The notes below the pieces were generated by a model, which was not told where the DNA came from, did no database searches, and saw only the letters and a list, made by a program, of their open reading frames with translations. Both the position numbers and the translations under genes were made by a program. Of a stretch of DNA of 64,000 nucleotides, positions 11,081-54,395 are shown in pieces (position 1 is the first letter of the stretch; each line of letters opens with the position of its first letter). Location: NCBI GenBank assembly GCA_903927185.1, contig CAIYLW010000085.1:62001-126000 (forward strand). The letters are read 5' to 3'. This stretch comes from an uncultured Bacteroidota bacterium (GTDB lineage: Bacteria; Bacteroidota; Bacteroidia; Chitinophagales; Chitinophagaceae).

Positions 11081-11485
11081 TTAAAAAAACAACGCTAGTC
11101 GCTTATTTAATATCCCCATTGCGATATAAAGCATTGGGGATATTAAAAACTCTTGCATACTTGCTGCAATTTCTTTAACCTGATAACTTACCATTCCAAA
11201 TATCCAATCGTATAAACCAATGCATGTAATAGTGCCTAAAAGGCTTATATGCACTATATGCCAGAGATAAAGCATCCAAAAGTTTTGTTGTTCCCGTAAA
11301 TGGGAAGTGCCAACCAGATAAACAATTAATGTAGTTGAAAATTTAATTACATGTCTCCATTTCCTGGGAATTAAAATAGTATCAGCCCTATCTGCAAAAA
11401 ATATATAAAAAAGGCAATAGATTAGTACTATTATAGATAGTCCTATAAAATAACGTTGTTGATTTGATTTATAAAGTCGCAGCAT
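11081..11485 (-). CDS. Small exosortase-associated membrane protein
   Basis: 134 residues with about four hydrophobic segments (FIGLSIIVLIYCLFYIFFAD, TTLIVYLVGTS, MLYLWHIVHISLLGTITCIGLY and SPMLYIAMGIL). Its start overlaps the end of the exosortase gene by 17 bases, so translation is probably coupled. Its size and position fit the small partner proteins of Bacteroidota exosortases such as XrtX. The sequence shows no catalytic motif. A role in exosortase assembly or substrate handling is an inference. Confidence 0.65.
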   Translation of the reverse strand: MLRLYKSNQQRYFIGLSIIVLIYCLFYIFFADRADTILIPRKWRHVIKFSTTLIVYLVGTSHLREQQNFWMLYLWHIVHISLLGTITCIGLYDWIFGMVSYQVKEIAASMQEFLISPMLYIAMGILNKRLALFF

Positions 11486-12068
11486 TGATTTCTGTTTTTC
11501 TGGTAAAACGAACCCAAAGAGCCACTATAACTGAGTAAACAATTGCCTTAAAAATAAAATGGTGCGAAAAATTAAAATAGGGATGATAATATTCTTTGAT
11601 GAATCCAAGAACAGAACACCGTAAAATGTTGATAGCATCAATAATAATCAAACCAAATAAAATAGAAAATGTTTTTCTTAAACCGGATACAGGGAAGCAA
11701 AAAATAAAACCTGCATATATAACCATTAATTCAAGTCCATTACACCCATCAGCAATATGTAATACTTTTTTATTGTAATGAATAATTTTAGTAACTGGCG
11801 CAATTTGAATTTGCCCTTCCATGAATGTGGTATCCGAAATGTTGAACGATTGAAAATTTTGCAGGCCGCTAAATTTATTTAGTATATAAACAGCTGAAGA
11901 TCCTACATGAGAAGTTAAGGGGGCATCAAGTATTCTGTTGTTCATTAAAAATAAAAGAAAAATTATTTTCCATGATATGATTAAAATGCCAGCCTTACCT
12001 AAAAAAAATCTAACAGATTTTGGTATTAATAGATATGAATTTAATATTTTTTTTTGCCTCATACCCAT
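11469..12068 (-). CDS. Exosortase / archaeosortase family transpeptidase (possibly XrtX type)
   Basis: 199 residues with several membrane helices. Exosortases are integral-membrane cysteine transpeptidases that cleave C-terminal sorting signals and hand proteins to the cell surface. The catalytic triad is visible: Cys109 in GCNGLE, Arg150 in NILRCSVLG, and His169/His170 in FSHHF. The length is typical of the short exosortases of Bacteroidota. The overlapping small membrane protein gene suggests the XrtX subfamily, but the subtype is uncertain. I found no protein in the window with a convincing C-terminal sorting signal, so its substrates are probably encoded elsewhere. Confidence 0.88.
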   Translation of the reverse strand: MGMRQKKILNSYLLIPKSVRFFLGKAGILIISWKIIFLLFLMNNRILDAPLTSHVGSSAVYILNKFSGLQNFQSFNISDTTFMEGQIQIAPVTKIIHYNKKVLHIADGCNGLELMVIYAGFIFCFPVSGLRKTFSILFGLIIIDAINILRCSVLGFIKEYYHPYFNFSHHFIFKAIVYSVIVALWVRFTRKTEINAATL

Positions 12069-45954: not shown

Positions 45955-47112
45955 TTAATGGATTAACTCATACAAAGCAGCAGGGAAGAAAATTTTTGTG
46001 GGTACCGAATTCATGATTTTTAAATCTTCGAAAATATTCGATTCATTATCTAAAAACCTCAATACCATTTCTGTTTTGTTTTTAGAAAAAATAGATCCGA
46101 AAATTTTATCTCCGCCCATTTTTTGATGATGCAACACATGCAACAATACGGCATCATACAAATTTCCTTTTCTTTGCGATAACCTTACTATATCGAACTT
46201 AGTTGATCCTTGTTTTATTCCCTTAACTATTGCCGCTGTTCGTTTCTGAATAAACTGAAATGCATATCCACTACTTCCCTTTACCTGTCCACCCGCAACT
46301 CCCATTTGAATGATTCGACGATCTTGCAAATCGAACAGCTGATTGGTCATAGGTATAATTCCAAATTCAGTATGCTGAATGCTATAATTTTTAATGCCAA
46401 GGAATTCACTAATATACGCTTTTAGAGATGCTTCATAATCATCATCCGTCAGAAGTGTTTCTGAAAACAATGTATACTCCACCAACGCAGTATTAGCAGC
46501 AGTGGGCATTACATAAAAAAAAGTAGTGCCCTTTTCCTGACTTGTTCTAAAGTCCATCAAAGTAGCCACAGACGGATCAAAACATGGTTCCTCCGTTTGT
46601 ATTACCCATCCTTTAAAATGTTGCAAGAGCTGATATACCTTTTTGGATGGAGTTGATTTGTCTTTCTCAAAAACAATACTATTAAAAACATAATCTGCAG
46701 TTACAGACTCATTTTTCAAATGTACTTCTGCCTTAGAAGAAGTAGTATGAATATTTAAAACCTCTTCATACCGAAATTCAATATTAGAAAATTGTGCCGC
46801 CCTATGCATAACCGATTCATACAAATCAATCCCTTGAATCATTTTATAACGATAGGGAGCTAAATCCAGTTTTCTAAAAAAGTCCTTAGAAAAGAAATTA
46901 ACATGCTGCCATTGATGATGTACAATTGTTTCAAACAATCCTTGTTCCTTTTCCCAAAAACACCAGGTACGATCGTTTTTATTTTTGAACTCCCGATCAA
47001 TGACAAGTATTTTTTTCTCAGAGAAAAAAGGATCCTCCATCATGCGCATTAGTAAACTTAATCCCGCACAACCGGCACCAGTAATGATATAGTTGTACTC
47101 TTTAGGCGCCAT
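45955..47112 (-). CDS. crtY: Lycopene beta-cyclase
   Basis: 385 residues. The N-terminus (YNYIITGAGCAGLSLLMRM) is the dinucleotide-binding motif of the CrtY/CrtL cyclases. Other family parts are NDRTWCFWEKEQGLFE, the YRYKMIQGIDLY region, MDFRTSQEKGTTFFYVMP and MGVAGGQVKGSSGYAFQFIQ. It forms beta-ionone rings on lycopene. With CruF and CrtD in the operon it would cyclise only one end. It lies 14 bases downstream of crtZ. Confidence 0.93.
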   Translation of the reverse strand: MAPKEYNYIITGAGCAGLSLLMRMMEDPFFSEKKILVIDREFKNKNDRTWCFWEKEQGLFETIVHHQWQHVNFFSKDFFRKLDLAPYRYKMIQGIDLYESVMHRAAQFSNIEFRYEEVLNIHTTSSKAEVHLKNESVTADYVFNSIVFEKDKSTPSKKVYQLLQHFKGWVIQTEEPCFDPSVATLMDFRTSQEKGTTFFYVMPTAANTALVEYTLFSETLLTDDDYEASLKAYISEFLGIKNYSIQHTEFGIIPMTNQLFDLQDRRIIQMGVAGGQVKGSSGYAFQFIQKRTAAIVKGIKQGSTKFDIVRLSQRKGNLYDAVLLHVLHHQKMGGDKIFGSIFSKNKTEMVLRFLDNESNIFEDLKIMNSVPTKIFFPAALYELIH

Positions 47113-47126
47113 TTTTAATGATGAAT

Positions 47127-47603
47127 TTATTGAGGATTATTTTGAATGGCTTCGTCTTTTCTAATTTTTTCCCAATACTTTTTTGCCACCAATAACATAC
47201 CAAAGCTTTCTCCTTCCTCTTTATCTATATGTTTATGATGCATTTTATGTGCCCAGCGAATGGCTTTGATATAACGACTTTTTGACCTTGTAAATAATTT
47301 AAAACGTTGATGGATGATGATCTCATGCACCAGAAAATAGGCGAACCCGTATAAAGCAATGCCGGCTCCAATAGCTACCACCCAATAAACCTGATTCATA
47401 CTGCCTAACATAATACAAAGCCAACTAGGTATTGCGAAGATGACAAAGAAAGCATCGTTCTTTTCAAAAAATCCGGTCCCTTTTTTATGATGATCTTCAT
47501 GCAAATACCATAAAAATCCATGCATCACAAATCTATGTGTTAGCCAGGTTATGCCTTCCATGATGCAAAATGTGATCAGTGTAATGAATACAAAATTCAT
47601 CAT
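47127..47603 (-). CDS. crtZ: Beta-carotene 3-hydroxylase
   Basis: 158 residues. The di-iron histidine motifs of the fatty-acid-hydroxylase-like CrtZ family are seen: THRFVMHGFLWYLHEDHHKKG near the N-terminus and HEIIIHQRFK and AHKMHHKHID later. It adds a hydroxyl group to C3 of the beta-ionone ring. The start codon overlaps the end of cruF by four bases (ATGA-type overlap), a sign of translational coupling. Confidence 0.93.
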   Translation of the reverse strand: MMNFVFITLITFCIMEGITWLTHRFVMHGFLWYLHEDHHKKGTGFFEKNDAFFVIFAIPSWLCIMLGSMNQVYWVVAIGAGIALYGFAYFLVHEIIIHQRFKLFTRSKSRYIKAIRWAHKMHHKHIDKEEGESFGMLLVAKKYWEKIRKDEAIQNNPQ

Positions 47604-48295
47604 AAAAAAAATCTTAGAGTTAAAAAAAACAATACTTGAATAATTAATAAATCAACCGCAAAATAATTGTCCTTATTAAATTTTAGCTTACTAAATACCC
47701 ACAATAAAAACATGCTGATTAAAAACCAACATAGGTAATTATATAAAGGTATTTCCCCGTCTTTCCATTCCCAAAAGCCCATCTTAATTGCTACAGGTTC
47801 CATGATCCAATCGAAAAATAGTGCAATCGAAGCTCCATCAAATATCAACGAAAGTCTTTCTAATAAAGGAGTCATGCTAAATCCTGAAGCTTCATACTGT
47901 TCAGTGATCCATCGATGCAATTTAGTCATTACAATACCACAACAAAACATCAGAATAAACCAGTTCAATCCTATCAACCATGGAACTCCGTTAAATTTAG
48001 CACCCATTTTTACACCATAATGATACGCACCGAATAAGTGTCCGGTATGAACCCCTATCATTTCTACACCCATACCTATCAAAAAACTAAAGATAAAAAA
48101 AGCAAAAAAAGCTTTATTCTTTTCTGGCTGATTCCATATAAGTAATACAGCCATTAAAACCAGATTCAAACTCGTATTTTGTATAAACCATTCTTTCTGA
48201 TTAGTGTATATGATACCAATGAACCCACTAAAATGAAAAAGAATCGCAAGGAAAGTGGCGATATTATGTTTCGATATTTTTATATTTCCAATCAG
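47600..48295 (-). CDS. cruF: Carotenoid 1',2'-hydratase (CruF family), non-ATG start
   Basis: Integral-membrane enzyme that hydrates the acyclic end of gamma-carotene-like intermediates. Recognisable parts are the GVEMIGVHTGHLFGAYHYG segment, GVPWLIGLNW and FDWIMEPVAIKMGFWEW. A TTG at 48169 would give only 189 residues and remove the first membrane helix. The open frame extends to the crtD stop codon and encodes that helix (IATFLAILFHFSGFIGIIYT). No ATG, GTG or TTG is available before it; CTG 48295-48293 or ATT 48292-48290 are the best candidates. I use the CTG, giving 231 residues, which is normal for the family. Confidence 0.82.
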   Translation of the reverse strand: MIGNIKISKHNIATFLAILFHFSGFIGIIYTNQKEWFIQNTSLNLVLMAVLLIWNQPEKNKAFFAFFIFSFLIGMGVEMIGVHTGHLFGAYHYGVKMGAKFNGVPWLIGLNWFILMFCCGIVMTKLHRWITEQYEASGFSMTPLLERLSLIFDGASIALFFDWIMEPVAIKMGFWEWKDGEIPLYNYLCWFLISMFLLWVFSKLKFNKDNYFAVDLLIIQVLFFLTLRFFL

Positions 48296-48307: not shown

Positions 48308-49798
48308 TTATTTTCCTTTAAAATCTTCTGCCACAATTTTACTCGTGATGGCAGCACTCTTTAAACACAAAGGTATGCCACCGCCCGGATGTACACTTCC
48401 GCCTACAAAATATAAATTTTTTATTTTCTTCGAAAAATTTGGATGCCGTAAAAAAGCAGCCATTTTTGAATTGGAACTGGTACCATATAAAGATCCCCTA
48501 TAGGAATCAGTTCTGTTCTCTATCGTAACTGGGTCCAGAACTTCCTCCACTTCAATCATTGGGGATATATCCACTCCAAGTATTCTATTCAACTTTTCAA
48601 TAATTGCAGCTTTGTATTGCTCTTTAAATTTCAACCAATCTTGTCCGATATTAGCTGGAGCATTAACCATTACAAACCAATTTTCTTTTCCCAATGGAGC
48701 CTGTAATCCCGGCTCTATCTTACCTGTGATATTTATATAAACGGTAGGATCTTCATACACTTTTTTAGTTTTAAAAAGTGATTTAAATTCTTCCTGATAA
48801 TTTGTAGTAAAAAATATATTGTGCAGCTCCAGTTCCGGAAAAGAACGATTTATGCCCCAATAAAAAATCAAGGCACTACTACTTCTTTCTTGTTTTAATA
48901 CTTCACTTGCTTTGGAATGATCTAACAACAATCTCTGATATGTAAAATATACATCCATATTGCTTACTACAATATCGGAGAATATATTCTTACCTGCTAC
49001 CACTACACCATTTGCACAGTTTTCGTTTTGAATGATCCGTTCAACTGGTGTTGAAAAATAAAACTGTACCCCTTTCTTTAATGCAAGCTGGTATAAGGCT
49101 TTGCTAATACTAATCATGCCGCCTTTGGGATAAAAAGTGCCTTGATTTAACTCCAGATGAGGAATCAGGCTTAACATCCCCGGGGCCTGGTAGGGATTAC
49201 TTCCATTATAGGTAGCAAAGCGATTAAATAATTGTATGGTGTGCTTTTGTTTAAAATGACTTTCATTTAAATCATGCATCGATTTAAAAAGGTGCTTCCA
49301 TCGCAACGTTTTAATTGCTTTATAAACACCCGGTGAAAACAAAGTCTTTATTTGGTGTAAAGAATTATTCAGAAATAGTCCTGCAATATTTTGATACAGT
49401 TTCTTAGAGCTCTCCAAATAACTTAATATTCTTTCTTTTTTTTCTCCCGTTTTATTTTCAAGTTCTTCAGCAAATACGAGATTATTTGTATAGGCGTTGA
49501 TAACAGTTCCGTCTTCGTAAAAATATTTGAAAGAGATGGGGAGTGATTGGTAATGAAAATAATTTTCGATTGGTTCTCCTGCTAGTGTAAAAAGTTCTTC
49601 GATATTTTCAGGTTGGGTAAACAAACTCGGACCCGCATCGAATTGATATCCCTTTACTTTAAATTCACTAATCTTACCTCCGGGATACTCGTTCTTTTCA
49701 TATACAATTACCTGAAATCCTTGTGCAGACAATCTTATAGCTGATGCTAGCCCGGCAACTCCTGCTCCAATAATGATCGCTGTTTTAGAATGGCTCAT
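48308..49798 (-). CDS. crtD: Carotenoid 3,4-desaturase (CrtD-like), phytoene desaturase family
   Basis: 496 residues of the CrtI/CrtD flavoprotein family. The FAD motif AIIIGAGVAGLASAIRLSAQG, the glycine pair in NEYPGGKISEFKVKGYQFDAGPS and the C-terminal YFVGGSVHPGGGIPLCLKSA are present. It is the second desaturase in the operon. Because it sits next to cruF and crtZ rather than crtB, I assign it as the enzyme that desaturates 1-hydroxylated carotenoids at C3,4. The assignment against CrtI is by context. Confidence 0.8.
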   Translation of the reverse strand: MSHSKTAIIIGAGVAGLASAIRLSAQGFQVIVYEKNEYPGGKISEFKVKGYQFDAGPSLFTQPENIEELFTLAGEPIENYFHYQSLPISFKYFYEDGTVINAYTNNLVFAEELENKTGEKKERILSYLESSKKLYQNIAGLFLNNSLHQIKTLFSPGVYKAIKTLRWKHLFKSMHDLNESHFKQKHTIQLFNRFATYNGSNPYQAPGMLSLIPHLELNQGTFYPKGGMISISKALYQLALKKGVQFYFSTPVERIIQNENCANGVVVAGKNIFSDIVVSNMDVYFTYQRLLLDHSKASEVLKQERSSSALIFYWGINRSFPELELHNIFFTTNYQEEFKSLFKTKKVYEDPTVYINITGKIEPGLQAPLGKENWFVMVNAPANIGQDWLKFKEQYKAAIIEKLNRILGVDISPMIEVEEVLDPVTIENRTDSYRGSLYGTSSNSKMAAFLRHPNFSKKIKNLYFVGGSVHPGGGIPLCLKSAAITSKIVAEDFKGK

Positions 49799-49815: not shown

Positions 49816-50349
49816 TTAGGCTATTTTATGAGCATAATTCAGCTGCCACCATTGCATCATTTTAGGAAAGATAATTTCGAACCAGGCAGTAAACATGCCA
49901 TCATGGGATACTAGTGATTGCTGTATGCTTTCCATAGAACGAAAAACAAAATCATTAACCTCTAAAGGATTCACCTCTATTGAACCATCATAATATCCTA
50001 CAAACACATGATCGAATTCATGTTCGGTTAACCCATTATCAAAACTTGCCTGATATACGAAATCAAAAACTTTTTCTAAGGGCACTGAAAAACCCATTTC
50101 TTCATGTAGTCTTCTATTTGCAGCATCTTCCACTGTTTCGTTAGGTCGGGGGTGACTACAACAGGTGTTAGTCCATAAACCGCCGCTATGGTATTTATTA
50201 AGCGCTCTTTGTTGTAATAACAATTCGCCTTTTTGATTAAAAACAAAAACACTAAAGGCCCTATGTAATAAAGCTTTTTCGTGTGCTTCCATTTTCTCCA
50301 TCACACCTAATTCTTCATCTCGATCATTTACTAATACTACCTGTTCCAT
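49816..50349 (-). CDS. idi: Isopentenyl-diphosphate delta-isomerase, type 1
   Basis: 177 residues of the Nudix-fold type 1 isomerase. Catalytic Cys lies in TNTCCSHPRPNE and the acidic Nudix-like helix in RRLHEEMGFSVP; the QRALNKYHSGGLWTN region is also conserved. It converts IPP to DMAPP to supply the prenyl precursor of carotenoids. It lies 17 bases upstream of crtD. No GGPP synthase gene is in the window. Confidence 0.95.
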   Translation of the reverse strand: MEQVVLVNDRDEELGVMEKMEAHEKALLHRAFSVFVFNQKGELLLQQRALNKYHSGGLWTNTCCSHPRPNETVEDAANRRLHEEMGFSVPLEKVFDFVYQASFDNGLTEHEFDHVFVGYYDGSIEVNPLEVNDFVFRSMESIQQSLVSHDGMFTAWFEIIFPKMMQWWQLNYAHKIA

Positions 50350-50376: not shown

Positions 50377-51213
50377 CTACAACATATTCATTTGACTTCG
50401 GATGCCCGCCTTTGCAAGTATAAAAAATTTGCCATAGTCAGGAATTCGAATCCTTTGTTGCATAATTTTTTGTGGTTGAATTTTTTTGATTTTTTTGAAG
50501 AGCGATAAATAGTATTTAAATGCTACATATACGCCAAACCTTGCTTTGATAGGCAATTTTTGAATCCCTTCAAATGCATGATCAAAATCCTTTTGAATAT
50601 CTCTCTCAATTTCTTGTTTATCCTTTTCACTGAAGTTGTTGAAATTACAACCTGGAAAATATATTCTATCTAATCCTTCATAATCTGCTCGAAGGTCTCT
50701 CAGAAAATTTACTTTCTGAAAAGCAGCACCTAAACTTTTAGCATAGGGTTTTAAGGATTCGTATTCTTCTTTATGTCCTGCACAAAATACATGAAGACAC
50801 ATCAAGCCTACTACTTCTGCACTACCATATATATATTCTTCGTATCCTGCTTTATCGTACTCACGTTTCTCCAAATCCAATTCCATACTATACAAAAAAG
50901 CTTCAATCAGATGATGGTCGATCTGGTATTCATTTACTGTAATTTGAAAGCTATTTAAAATTGGATTTAAACTTATTTTTTTGTCGATGGCTTCATATGT
51001 CGATTTTTTAAAATCAGCCAATAGGTCGGCCTTTGGATGCTCGTGAAAGCTATCCACTATTTCGTCAGCAAATCTCACAAATCCGTAGATATTGCAAATT
51101 GGCGTTCTGAAATCTTTATGCAATAGTTTAATTGCCGAAAAAAAGCTGGTGCTATATTTTTCGGTGGTAATTCTACTGCAATCCTGACTCACTTCATGAA
51201 ACAGGTCCATCAT
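50377..51213 (-). CDS. crtB: Phytoene synthase
   Basis: 278 residues of the squalene/phytoene synthase family. The two Asp-rich regions are visible: YGFVRFADEIVDSF and NFLRDLRADYEGLDRIYFP. It condenses two GGPP molecules to phytoene. The order crtI-crtB-idi-crtD continues as a single minus-strand transcript with gaps below 60 bases. Confidence 0.95.
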   Translation of the reverse strand: MMDLFHEVSQDCSRITTEKYSTSFFSAIKLLHKDFRTPICNIYGFVRFADEIVDSFHEHPKADLLADFKKSTYEAIDKKISLNPILNSFQITVNEYQIDHHLIEAFLYSMELDLEKREYDKAGYEEYIYGSAEVVGLMCLHVFCAGHKEEYESLKPYAKSLGAAFQKVNFLRDLRADYEGLDRIYFPGCNFNNFSEKDKQEIERDIQKDFDHAFEGIQKLPIKARFGVYVAFKYYLSLFKKIKKIQPQKIMQQRIRIPDYGKFFILAKAGIRSQMNML

Positions 51214-51272: not shown

Positions 51273-52778
51273 CTAATTTGATTTTCCAAAAGCCTTAATC
51301 ACTTCACCTGCCACCACTTCTCCGCTAATCAAACTTGGCGGTACTCCTGGCCCTGGAACTGTTAATTGTCCAGTATAAAAAAGGTTCTTCAGTTTTTTAC
51401 TTTTGCAGGCTGGTTTTAGAATAGCTGTTTGCAGCAAGGTATTCGCTAAACCGTATGCATTTCCCTTAAAGGAATGATAATCATTGATAAAATCGCTATT
51501 TGAATAGGATCTTTTATAAATAATGCTTTCTTTTATTGTTTGCCCCAGATGCTTTTCCATCCTATTAATGATCAAATCAAAGTAATGATCTCTTAAAGCT
51601 TCATCATCGTTTTTCAGGCCTGCGGCAACGGGTATCAATAAAAATAAATTCTCACAACCTTCAGGAGCTGATTGCGGATCTGTAACTGAAACCGCACTCA
51701 CATAAAACAAGGGGTCTGTGGGCCATTTCTTTGATGTATAAATTTCATCTCCATGAACTGCAAATGAAGTGTCGAAAAACAATGTATGGTGTAAAATGCC
51801 TGAAATCTTTTTATTTAAGCCAATATAAAAGATAAGGCATCCGGGTGCCATTACCCTTTTTTCCCAATAGGCTTCTGAATAAGATCTAAATTCCTTCGGC
51901 AAAATTTTTGTTTCAACATGGTGATAATCGGCTCCGGCAACAACCACATCTGCTTTATACATTTGGGGAATTTTTATTCCATCATGTGTTGCATTTGATA
52001 TAACAGTTCTAATAGAATTATCCTGAAAAGTTACATTGGTAACTTCTTCTTCGAACTTAAATTTTACTCCAAGTTCAACTGCTAATAAATACATGGCTTC
52101 CACAATTTGATACATCCCTCTTTCGGGATACCAAGTACCACCTTTAATATCTGCATAGTTCATCAAACTATATAATGCTGGTGTGTCTTCAGGTAGCGCT
52201 CCTAAAAATAAAACCGGGAATTCCATCAGCTCTTTTAACTTAGGATTGTTAAAATGCTTTGATACATGTTTTTTAATAGAGTTAAAAACATCTAACCGAA
52301 AAATTCCACTGACCAGTTCTTTATCTAAAAATTCTGTCAATGATTGTCCGGGCTTGAAAACCAATTTATTGATACCAACCTGATATTTATAAGCAGCTTC
52401 CCCAATATATTTATCAAGCTTATCGCCACTACCCGGTTCAATGCTTTCGAACAAATCTCTGAAGGCATTATAATCTGCTGGAATATCCATTGGACCGTCT
52501 TTCCAAACAATTCTATAAGAAGGATCTAACCTGATTAATTGATAGTAATCAGAAACTGATTTGCCAAATTGTTTAAAGTAACGTTCAAACACATCTGGCA
52601 TCCAATACCAACTAGGCCCCATATCAAAAGTGAATCCATCTACTTTAAATTGTCTGGCCCTCCCGCCGGGTTGATTGTGCTTTTCCAGCACAGTTACATC
52701 CCATCCAGCTTTTGCCAGAAACGACGCAGCCGAAAGGCCTGCAAATCCACTGCCTATAACAATAGCTTTCTTAGTCAC
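51273..52778 (-). CDS. crtI: Phytoene desaturase
   Basis: 501 residues. FAD motif AIVIGSGFAGLSAASFLAKAG and the flavin-binding HNQPGGRARQFKVDGFTFDMGPSWYWMP are typical of CrtI, as is the C-terminal FYTGQLTVPGPGVPPSLISG. It introduces double bases into phytoene to give lycopene. The start is GTG at 52778-52776, preceded by an in-frame TAA, so no earlier start is possible. It lies 37 bases after the sigma factor gene. Confidence 0.93.
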   Translation of the reverse strand: MTKKAIVIGSGFAGLSAASFLAKAGWDVTVLEKHNQPGGRARQFKVDGFTFDMGPSWYWMPDVFERYFKQFGKSVSDYYQLIRLDPSYRIVWKDGPMDIPADYNAFRDLFESIEPGSGDKLDKYIGEAAYKYQVGINKLVFKPGQSLTEFLDKELVSGIFRLDVFNSIKKHVSKHFNNPKLKELMEFPVLFLGALPEDTPALYSLMNYADIKGGTWYPERGMYQIVEAMYLLAVELGVKFKFEEEVTNVTFQDNSIRTVISNATHDGIKIPQMYKADVVVAGADYHHVETKILPKEFRSYSEAYWEKRVMAPGCLIFYIGLNKKISGILHHTLFFDTSFAVHGDEIYTSKKWPTDPLFYVSAVSVTDPQSAPEGCENLFLLIPVAAGLKNDDEALRDHYFDLIINRMEKHLGQTIKESIIYKRSYSNSDFINDYHSFKGNAYGLANTLLQTAILKPACKSKKLKNLFYTGQLTVPGPGVPPSLISGEVVAGEVIKAFGKSN

Positions 52779-52815: not shown

Positions 52816-53316
52816 TTAGTGGCGTTCAATCTGCGATTTCAATAATTTACGCGCAAAGTGAATCCTACTCTTAATAGTACCTAAAGGTTCTTTTAGCATA
52901 TCTGCTATTTCATGATATTTGTACCCATCAAAATAAAGGAGAAAAGGATTACGAAAAATTTCCGGAAGCTTATGGATGGCTTCTTGTACCTCTTTCATAT
53001 TTAAGGTTGCAATGGCTTCATTAGCAACAGCCACTTGATTAGTATCTAATAAAAAGTCGTTCGCTGTATGATCGAAAATAGTTTGTTGCTTTGACTTTCT
53101 GCGGTAGTTATTAATAAAAATATTACGCATGATGGTATACATCCAAGCCTTAATATTTGTACCAATATGGTACTTCTCTTTATTTGCCAGAGCCCGGAAT
53201 AAAGTCTCTTGAACAAGATCTTTCGCAGCTTCCTGATCTCTTGTTAAAGTAAAAGCAAATGGCCTAAGAAACTCTGTGTTCTTAATCAGTATTTGATCGA
53301 AATCGAGCGTTGACAT
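52816..53316 (-). CDS. ECF-type RNA polymerase sigma factor
   Basis: 166 residues. Sigma region 2 appears in RPFAFTLTRDQEAAKDLVQETLFRALAN and IKAWMYTIMRNIFINNYRRKSK; region 4 in IHKLPEIFRNPFLLYFDGYKYHEIADMLKEPLGTIKSRIHFARKLLK. No anti-sigma factor gene is adjacent. It is the first gene of the carotenoid operon and lies downstream of a CarH-like regulator. By analogy with Streptomyces LitR-LitS the regulator may repress this sigma factor in the dark; that remains an inference. Confidence 0.92.
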   Translation of the reverse strand: MSTLDFDQILIKNTEFLRPFAFTLTRDQEAAKDLVQETLFRALANKEKYHIGTNIKAWMYTIMRNIFINNYRRKSKQQTIFDHTANDFLLDTNQVAVANEAIATLNMKEVQEAIHKLPEIFRNPFLLYFDGYKYHEIADMLKEPLGTIKSRIHFARKLLKSQIERH

Positions 53317-53321
53317 ATATC

Positions 53322-53418
53322 TTGTTTAACTATTTACTTTGTAAAGCTAAACAAAATATAGTCGTATTTCCTTAAATTTTGTTTAATATTTTCATATTAA
53401 TAGTAAAACAAAGTAAAT
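53322..53418 (-). promoter_or_regulatory. Probable operator cluster upstream of the sigma factor gene
   Basis: The element TTTTGTTTA occurs at 53377-53385 and, inverted, at 53348-53356; TTGTTTAAC is at 53322-53330. An 11-base inverted pair (ATTTACTTTGT at 53332-53342, ACAAAGTAAAT at 53408-53418) frames them. The same TTTTGTTTAAT occurs before the CarH-like gene (54385-54395). Confidence 0.5.
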
Positions 53419-53474: not shown

Positions 53475-54359
53475 TTATTTGTTCAATTCACTAATAAATT
53501 CCATGACATGCTCTAATGAACTTTTGAATTGCACATTTGCCGGAATAGCCTTTTTATAAGAAGAAGTTACAAATCCAGATATAATTGTAAGCTGGTCAGG
53601 GATTTTTTGACCTATGAATTTGAGAAATTTTTCAAAATTGAAATTATGGGCTAAAGAAGTTAGGTGGCTGTAGATGAAATCGGGCGACTTTCTCTTGCAC
53701 AAATACTCGATATCTGCAATTGGCACATTCGCTCCTAAGTAAATTACTTTTATCCCTTTCGATTTTAGCAAATAATGTATAAATAATATACCCAATTCAT
53801 GGTGTTCACCTTCAGGCAAGAAAACGATACATAGTTTTGTAGAATTAAAAATACTTGTTATCGTTTCAATTCCAAGAATGATCTTTTGTCGGATAATATT
53901 GGTAATCAAATGCTCCTGAGCTGGATTGATATTACTAGTAACCCACAAAATACCTACTCGTTCTAAAAAAGGGAAAATGATTTGAGTAATCGATTTTTCA
54001 ATGCCTAACCTGCTGATATGTTGGTCTAAAATTGATTCAAATTGCTCAAAATCAATATCTATCATGCAATTAATCATCTCATTTACAATGCGTTCTTGCT
54101 GGGCTTGTAAATTAGTGAGAGAGAAGATTTTGTTTTTCAGCTCTTCTTTATTCATCTGAGCAATATGAGAAATCTTAAACCCGTACTTATTTAATAGTGC
54201 AATATTTAGTACCGTTTTTAATTCTTCATTACTATATATACGTATGTTGGTTCCTGTTCGATTAGGATTTAAAAAGGTATAGCGTTGCTCCCATATACGA
54301 ATTGTATGAGCTTTAATGCCAGAAAGGTTCTCTAGATCTTTAATATTGAAAGAGTTCAT
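53475..54359 (-). CDS. CarH/LitR-like MerR regulator with adenosylcobalamin-binding domain
   Basis: 294 residues from ATG 54359 (a TTG 18 bases upstream is in frame but unlikely). The N-terminal MerR helix-turn-helix reads FNIKDLENLSGIKAHTIRIWEQRY. The cobalamin domain contains W-x9-E-H (WVTSNINPAQEH), the light-sensing pocket of CarH, and E-x-H-x-x-G (EHHELG), whose His is the expected lower cobalt ligand; then KGIKVIYLGANVP. CarH binds DNA as an AdoCbl tetramer in the dark and dissociates in light. It precedes the ECF sigma gene by 158 bases on the same strand. Confidence 0.92.
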   Translation of the reverse strand: MNSFNIKDLENLSGIKAHTIRIWEQRYTFLNPNRTGTNIRIYSNEELKTVLNIALLNKYGFKISHIAQMNKEELKNKIFSLTNLQAQQERIVNEMINCMIDIDFEQFESILDQHISRLGIEKSITQIIFPFLERVGILWVTSNINPAQEHLITNIIRQKIILGIETITSIFNSTKLCIVFLPEGEHHELGILFIHYLLKSKGIKVIYLGANVPIADIEYLCKRKSPDFIYSHLTSLAHNFNFEKFLKFIGQKIPDQLTIISGFVTSSYKKAIPANVQFKSSLEHVMEFISELNK

Positions 54360-54384
54360 AACTGTATAAACAGTCAAGATAATG

Positions 54385-54395
54385 TTTTGTTTAAT
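54385..54395 (-). promoter_or_regulatory. TTTTGTTTAAT element upstream of the CarH-like gene
   Basis: An exact copy of the 11-base element at 53377-53387, about 26 bases upstream of the CarH-like start codon. A small inverted repeat, ACTGT-ATAA-ACAGT (54361-54374), lies between. This may be an autoregulatory site. Confidence 0.4.

Follow-up and report, generated by a model that had tools for sequence, protein, structure and literature searches.

A CarH/LitR-type regulator and a conserved candidate operator at an ECF sigma-carotenoid locus of the Chitinophagaceae

The locus and its regulator

The window, by which is meant the whole 64,000-nucleotide stretch analysed, contains a co-directional row of minus-strand genes in the order litR, ECF sigma gene, crtI, crtB, idi, crtD, cruF, crtZ and crtY. 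The litR/carH-like gene (53475..54359) opens with an ATG at 54359 and reads down to 53475, encoding 294 aa with a MerR domain, a four-helix bundle bearing a Wx9EH motif and a Rossmann B12 domain bearing ExHxxG. A gene that reads by eye as rfbA-like lies 72 bp upstream of it on the same strand. The ECF sigma factor (52816..53316; 166 aa) follows, with no anti-sigma gene noticed beside it, and 37 bp further on lies a crtI-type phytoene desaturase (51273..52778), above the cut-off of NCBIfam CrtID. The remainder of the row consists of the phytoene synthase crtB (50377..51213; Pfam SQS_PSY), the type I isopentenyl-diphosphate isomerase idi (49816..50349; NCBIfam), the hydroxycarotenoid 3,4-desaturase crtD (48308..49798; NCBIfam), a cruF-like carotenoid hydratase (47600..48169; above the cut-off of Pfam Caroten_synth and below those of the NCBIfam CruF models), a crtZ-like beta-carotene hydroxylase (47127..47603) and a crtY-like lycopene cyclase (45955..47112; Pfam). 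The ECF sigma gene and the crt operon, which an earlier sequence-only reading had placed downstream of the regulator, are confirmed by Pfam/NCBIfam, except that the 158-aa protein at 47127..47603 has no family match and is presumed to be CrtZ from its histidine motifs and position. Elsewhere in the window, positions 11469..12068 encode a membrane protein that reads by eye as exosortase-like.

Pfam matches within LitR comprise MerR_1 (PF13411; E 7.5e-13), which places a MerR-type DNA-binding domain at the N-terminus, B12-binding_2 (PF02607; 29 bits, cut-off 23) and B12-binding (PF02310), the last at 31.8 bits and slightly under its cut-off of 32.1. A phmmer comparison with Thermus CarH gave an E value of 7.6e-20 across residues 4-225. 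In this alignment, the residues opposite the Arg-Asp salt bridge of the CarH dimer are His and Asn. The predicted fold has a mean pLDDT of 91.7, and a search of the PDB with this model (threshold E 0.001) returned 98 matches, the best 50 of which are all CarH structures (top E 4.6e-15). Judged by sequence and predicted fold, the best match of LitR is Thermus CarH. Its score against the NCBIfam CarH equivalog (NF052513) is 108.9 bits, far below the curated cut-off of 400, and because of this score and an SG in place of a conserved GG, LitR is classed by its sequence as a CarH/LitR-type variant outside that equivalog. The gene is under purifying selection (dN/dS 0.09 against L036), and LitR diverges faster than its neighbours, as seen in identities to L036 of 91% for LitR and 99% for the ECF gene product.

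Both cobalamin motifs that had been claimed for the regulator alongside its MerR domain are in place, as W139-VTSNINPAQ-E149-H150 and E185-H-H187-E-L-G190. The Thermus CarH equivalents named in excerpts of PMC10442372 and PMC11796333 are W131, E141, H142 and H177. Across an alignment of 29 homologous sequences, W139, E149, H150, E185 and H187 do not vary, and G190 hardly does. The C-terminal part of the alignment spans 205 columns, 17 of them invariant, and five of these six pocket residues lie in such invariant columns (p 1.2e-5). This value is too kind, because the sequences were retrieved by two peptide patterns and E149-H150 is part of one of them; retrieval favours these two residues and not the other pocket positions. 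Of the longer signature ExHxxG-x41-SxV/T-x22-27-GG, LitR retains an intact ExHxxG, a spacer of 40, S231-H-L and, at 261-262, the SG that replaces GG.

The position directly after the motif Trp is V140, such that His132 of Thermus CarH, a residue that many but not all CarH proteins have, is absent. Among the 79 homologues showing the motif (drawn from the best 80 of 586 relatives) none has His there, the residues being Leu, Val, Gln, Ile, Met and Thr, and one of 31 other family sequences has it (L021). Four positions after the Trp, 64 of the same 79 homologues carry His, and LitR of the window carries Asn. His132 is the light-state ligand in Thermus CarH, of which the H132A variant is, as excerpted in PMC10442372, mostly tetrameric after light, where an earlier report had described disassembly.

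A second CarH/LitR-like protein is encoded in the same genome (C45:50877-51731, corresponding to L003:7833-8732). It is 37% identical to LitR, retains Wx9EH and has E-x-H-x-x-P in the place of the second motif. Its gene is flanked by lepB on one side and a sigma-54 response regulator on the other, both named by eye, and has no adjacent operator pair of the kind described below.

A candidate operator in the litR-ECF interval

The interval between litR and the ECF gene contains a candidate operator, which is a new observation. It consists of two inverted pairs of a CarH-type half-site, of the general form TGTTTA-N18/19-TAAACA, which stand 55-57 bp apart and share the half-site core TnnACA. Both pairs of the window lie within this interval and read TTTGTTTA-N18-TTAAACAAA on the minus strand. 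The distal pair, TTTGTTTTA...ATTAAACAAA, occupies 53378..53412, and the proximal pair, TTTGTTTAG...GTTAAACAAG, occupies 53321..53355, where 4 bp separate it from the ECF start codon. Enclosed within the proximal pair is a -7-like element, TAGCTTTA (TAnnTTTR; 53342..53349, minus strand). According to an excerpt of PMC9723704, the primary sigma factor of Flavobacterium has the related TAnnTTTG as its -7 box.

Conservation of this arrangement was assessed over 70 promoters, namely that of the window and those of 69 further loci. The latter derive from the best 80 of 586 confirmed relatives in genome_contigs, a sample fetched by two peptide patterns and biased to close kin and to the E149-H150 motif; the 11 of these 80 loci without an ECF match on record were excluded, and in two of the 69 the ECF gene is divergent from litR. 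The proximal pair was found in 66 promoters and the distal pair in 50, with both present in 48 and neither in two. The dominant start-to-start spacings over the 70 promoters are 24 and 25 for the two half-sites of a pair and 31-32 from one pair to the next, with the repeat as a whole recurring at 55-57, and each of the commonest spacings is expected in at most 0.08 promoters after mononucleotide shuffling. Under a strict N18-only pattern, 48 of the 70 promoters beat all 200 shuffles. The proximal pair ends within about 9 bp of the ECF start codon, and TAnnTTTR is in place inside it in 54 of 66 cases, compared with 1 of 50 for the distal pair.

The excerpted text of PMC9304148 gives TnnACA as the core of the CarH repeats, with which TAAACA agrees; it describes tandem 11-bp repeats as the CarH operators, with inverted repeats in some Myxococcus operators. 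In place of tandem direct repeats of this Thermus/Bacillus type, the interval has conserved inverted pairs. Single half-sites average 3.80 before ECF genes against 0.47 in shuffled sequence, and 1.31 against 0.52 before litR. They also exceed the shuffled value before crtB (0.52 against 0.24) and cruF (0.74 against 0.29), and therefore only pairs are counted as evidence here. A possible autoregulatory site before litR (54367..54393, minus strand) is correspondingly weak: it is made of a TAAACA at 54393-54388 and a TGTTTA at 54372-54367, convergent and 21 bp apart, and a half-site precedes litR in 73% of 81 loci, but the excess over shuffled sequence is similar before crtB and cruF. In 5 of 24 genomes searched (G070, G141, G143, G008 and G080), the roughly 100 bp ahead of litR contain a full inverted pair.

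The gap between the ECF gene and crtI has a median of 23 bp and is 60 bp or less in 55 of the 63 measurable loci among the best 80 of 586 relatives; in the eight gaps of at least 80 bp, no shared promoter was visible by eye. A LitR-controlled promoter ahead of the ECF gene can therefore read into the crt genes, and with so short a gap the pigment genes are, from their arrangement, probably also under direct LitR control. Induction of pigment through a sigma relay, as the sequence-only reading had it, is only partly supported: the LitR site at the ECF promoter is a predicted one, and direct read-through is possible, beside which the relay may serve as an extra branch.

Co-occurrence with LitR, distribution and further sites

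A strong LitR, defined by hand as a best E value below about 1e-75, is present in 118 of 244 genomes of the same family, and 115 of these 118 also have the ECF gene. From these 115, 35 genomes were taken, comprising the 28 best ECF scores, three within-genus partners and four in which litR is elsewhere or apart. They were compared with 31 genomes of the family that keep the ECF gene and have no LitR match at E 1e-20 (all of 32 but G050). All 35 genomes that carry this LitR have an operator pair in the 200 bp ahead of the ECF gene, as does 1 of the 31 that lack it (Fisher 5.6e-18, ignoring the tree). Since that value ignores the tree, the paired losses seen in four genera are the sturdier evidence: in g1, g9, g25 and g36, a member without this LitR is also without the pair, and the examined congeners carry both. 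In nine of the 35 genomes litR is on a different contig, at a large distance or, in G039, 1.7 kb from the ECF gene, and the pair is kept in all nine, so mere adjacency is no explanation. The sole LitR-less genome with a pair is G112, an assembly 69% complete, and one of the 35 LitR-bearing genomes, G223, has a stop within the LitR frame. The promoters of the LitR-less genomes retain TAnnTTTR in 19 of 31 cases, where 4.7 are expected.

The pair is absent from all three genomes having only a weak LitR relative. By the same rule G036, in which a weak LitR stands beside the ECF gene, has no pair. The ECF upstream region of G036 (L198) shows a TTGTTTTA...TAAAACAA repeat, which is perhaps a shifted, co-diverged operator. 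The repeats were also considered as a site of the lepB-linked paralogue, which is unlikely, there being no pair in L003 and none in the three genomes whose one LitR relative, of whatever type, is weak.

Record titles among the best 80 relatives name Sediminibacterium, Ferruginibacter, Chitinophagaceae and many MAGs. In a phylum-wide sample, a LitR relative at E 1e-30 occurs in 58 of 296 genomes. The order LitR-ECF-CrtI is common in the family and is also found in other families of the class. For 21 other-family loci (L159-L179), LitR is followed by an ECF gene in 10, with LitR identities of 35-43%, and an inverted pair lies between the two in 8 of those 10. L177 has LitR, a pair and CrtI without an ECF gene in that place, and L164 has a pair before litR. 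The examined flanks of 11 of the 21 lack a pair, among them L162 and L163 despite LitR followed by ECF. On gene order, LitR-ECF-crt is accordingly a module common to several families of the class. This distribution speaks for a shared module and against the suggestion that the circuit of Streptomyces had been rebuilt locally in a Bacteroidota genome.

Exact matches to TGTTTA-N18/19-TAAACA number four in this genome (control 0). One is at the ECF promoter, and a second, the sole further match outside coding frames, precedes PTPS-folE on C54. The remaining two fall inside coding frames, one on C103 in an apparent leuS and one on C56, and were set aside as chance. Copies with other spacings were likewise set aside as chance, namely L116, which lies inside a frame, and L119, which is flanked by the 3' ends of two frames. 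The C54 pair (L250:4242-4272) lies between two PTPS-like genes, upstream of PTPS2-folE, where PTPS was read by eye and FolE is family-matched. A pair stands in the matching place in the congener G087, and two genomes of another genus carry one before the same PTPS-folE genes. Under a 250-bp rule, a folE pair was found in 2 of 15 genomes with LitR (this genome and G087) and in none of the 9 that lack this LitR, a difference that is not significant (p 0.51); those of G206 and G143 fall just beyond the rule. About 2 kb from the C54 pair is a gene that reads by eye as a photolyase.

Rhodopsin was matched in 12 of 80 genomes searched, one of which was weak and left out. In G146 a pair (L253:7499-7530) lies directly before the rhodopsin gene, which is followed by a lycopene cyclase and a gene read by eye as Blh-like, and in G213 (L308) a pair again directly precedes the rhodopsin gene. 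The full pair is absent from 9 of the 11 rhodopsin promoters. This genome encodes a microbial rhodopsin of its own (L312, C111:7139-7801), whose promoter, counted among these nine, has one half-site near the start. The folE and rhodopsin sites are regarded as leads. As for B12 itself, the genome has an adenosyltransferase, and a cobalamin riboswitch (L035) precedes a TonB receptor that reads by eye as BtuB. The co-occurrence of adenosyltransferase with LitR is uninformative because the enzyme is near-universal, being present in 238 of 244 genomes of the family.

Proposed regulation, alternatives and meaning

Set beside the computed protein family, pocket residues, gene order, conserved operator, its dependence on the presence of LitR, the promoter overlap and the B12-related genes, the reading that we consider likely is that LitR acts as a CarH/LitR-type AdoCbl repressor of the ECF-crt operon and is released by light. 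From its sequence, we infer a dependence of LitR on both B12 and light. In the dark, an AdoCbl-bound LitR oligomer would occupy the two inverted pairs, four half-sites in all, that cover the -7 box and the DNA upstream of it, where it would block the primary sigma factor at the ECF-crt promoter; LitR would probably repress its own gene as well. Light would photolyse the cobalt-carbon bond and the oligomer would leave the DNA, upon which the ECF and crt genes would be transcribed as one message. With the ECF gene at the head of the crt row, derepression would be expected to raise the sigma factor and the enzymes together, and the ECF factor may then amplify the response or extend it to unlinked genes. 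Of these steps, we infer the binding of LitR to its operator and of AdoCbl to LitR, the release by light, repression over activation, and the ECF targets.

It is unlikely that LitR is instead a B12-independent repressor resembling CarA of Myxococcus xanthus, acting at the same kind of operator and answering to another signal or to an antirepressor. CarA binds B12 without needing it (excerpt of PMC8156234), and both the missing His132 and the replacement of GG by SG would suit such a protein. However, CarA is without the Trp of Wx9EH in the excerpted account of PMC9304148, whereas LitR has this Trp and it is invariant in the 29 homologues, as are the other four pocket residues, E-H being favoured by retrieval. 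The distant relatives L175, L176 and L178 show neither motif where they align, and reading the listed ORFs by eye brought up neither an antirepressor nor a LOV gene.

Two further accounts are each very improbable. One holds LitR to be mainly a light-dependent activator of the ECF promoter, in keeping with S. coelicolor, in which activated LitR promotes litS transcription according to the excerpted PMC12705666, although derepression of litR and litS is described in an excerpt of PMC5401885. The position of the proximal site, which encloses the -7 box and ends so close to the start codon, is that of a repressor. By the other account, the repeats are bound by a different factor that was lost together with LitR by coincidence, the repeats being tied to LitR by co-occurrence and by the half-site core alone. 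That core nevertheless fits the one given for CarH (PMC9304148, as excerpted), the pair persists where litR is non-adjacent, full pairs also precede litR itself in some genomes, and no pair is seen in the three genomes where the one LitR relative is weak.

The proposed light-released repressor shares with CarH/LitR of Thermus thermophilus the MerR domain, Wx9EH, ExHxxG, the fold, the half-site core TnnACA and a site over the promoter. The Thermus system differs in having His132, GG, tandem 11-bp repeats and the CRP-type LdrP, in contrast to the SG, inverted pairs and ECF factor found here. With LitR-LitS of Streptomyces coelicolor, to which the sequence-only reading had likened the locus, there is agreement in a litR gene that adjoins an ECF sigma gene within a carotenoid cluster and in a predicted LitR site at the sigma promoter. 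The likeness ends where the ECF gene here heads the crt row with tiny gaps, and for this reason the relay is probably not the only route to the pigment genes. M. xanthus CarH/CarA likewise has a large operator at the crt promoter and two paralogues in one genome, but the second paralogue of this genome combines an intact Wx9EH with ExHxxP and sits by lepB outside the crt cluster. Pseudomonas class II LitR (PplR/PmlR) has folE in its light regulon, for which the operator-like pair before PTPS-folE is the counterpart here; it differs in retaining the four-helix bundle only, and PmlR2 has a LOV partner (excerpts of PMC9758184).

Mechanisms of CarH have been described for Thermus, Bacillus, Streptomyces and myxobacteria (excerpts of PMC9304148, PMC8156234 and PMC5401885). 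Within the Bacteroidota, Chryseobacterium lacus has a light-induced carotenoid phenotype, the regulator of which was unknown in the excerpted paper (PMC7064467), and a MerR-family gene stands first in a flavobacterial crt cluster (excerpt of PMC11855829). Searches of one literature collection brought up no paper on a CarH operator or circuit from the Bacteroidota. The operator described here allows footprint and reporter tests as well as the finding of a regulon, and natural CarH-type proteins without His132 bear on the disputed ligand-switch step. More tentatively, and as a possibility that we hold at somewhat below even confidence, the Bacteroidota may possess a CarH branch spread over several families, which would switch mostly without His132 from a four-half-site inverted-repeat operator. 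In some lineages, this branch would also control pterin synthesis, through the PTPS-folE genes close to a photolyase gene, as well as a rhodopsin-lycopene cyclase-retinal set, such that light would turn on a light-driven pump.
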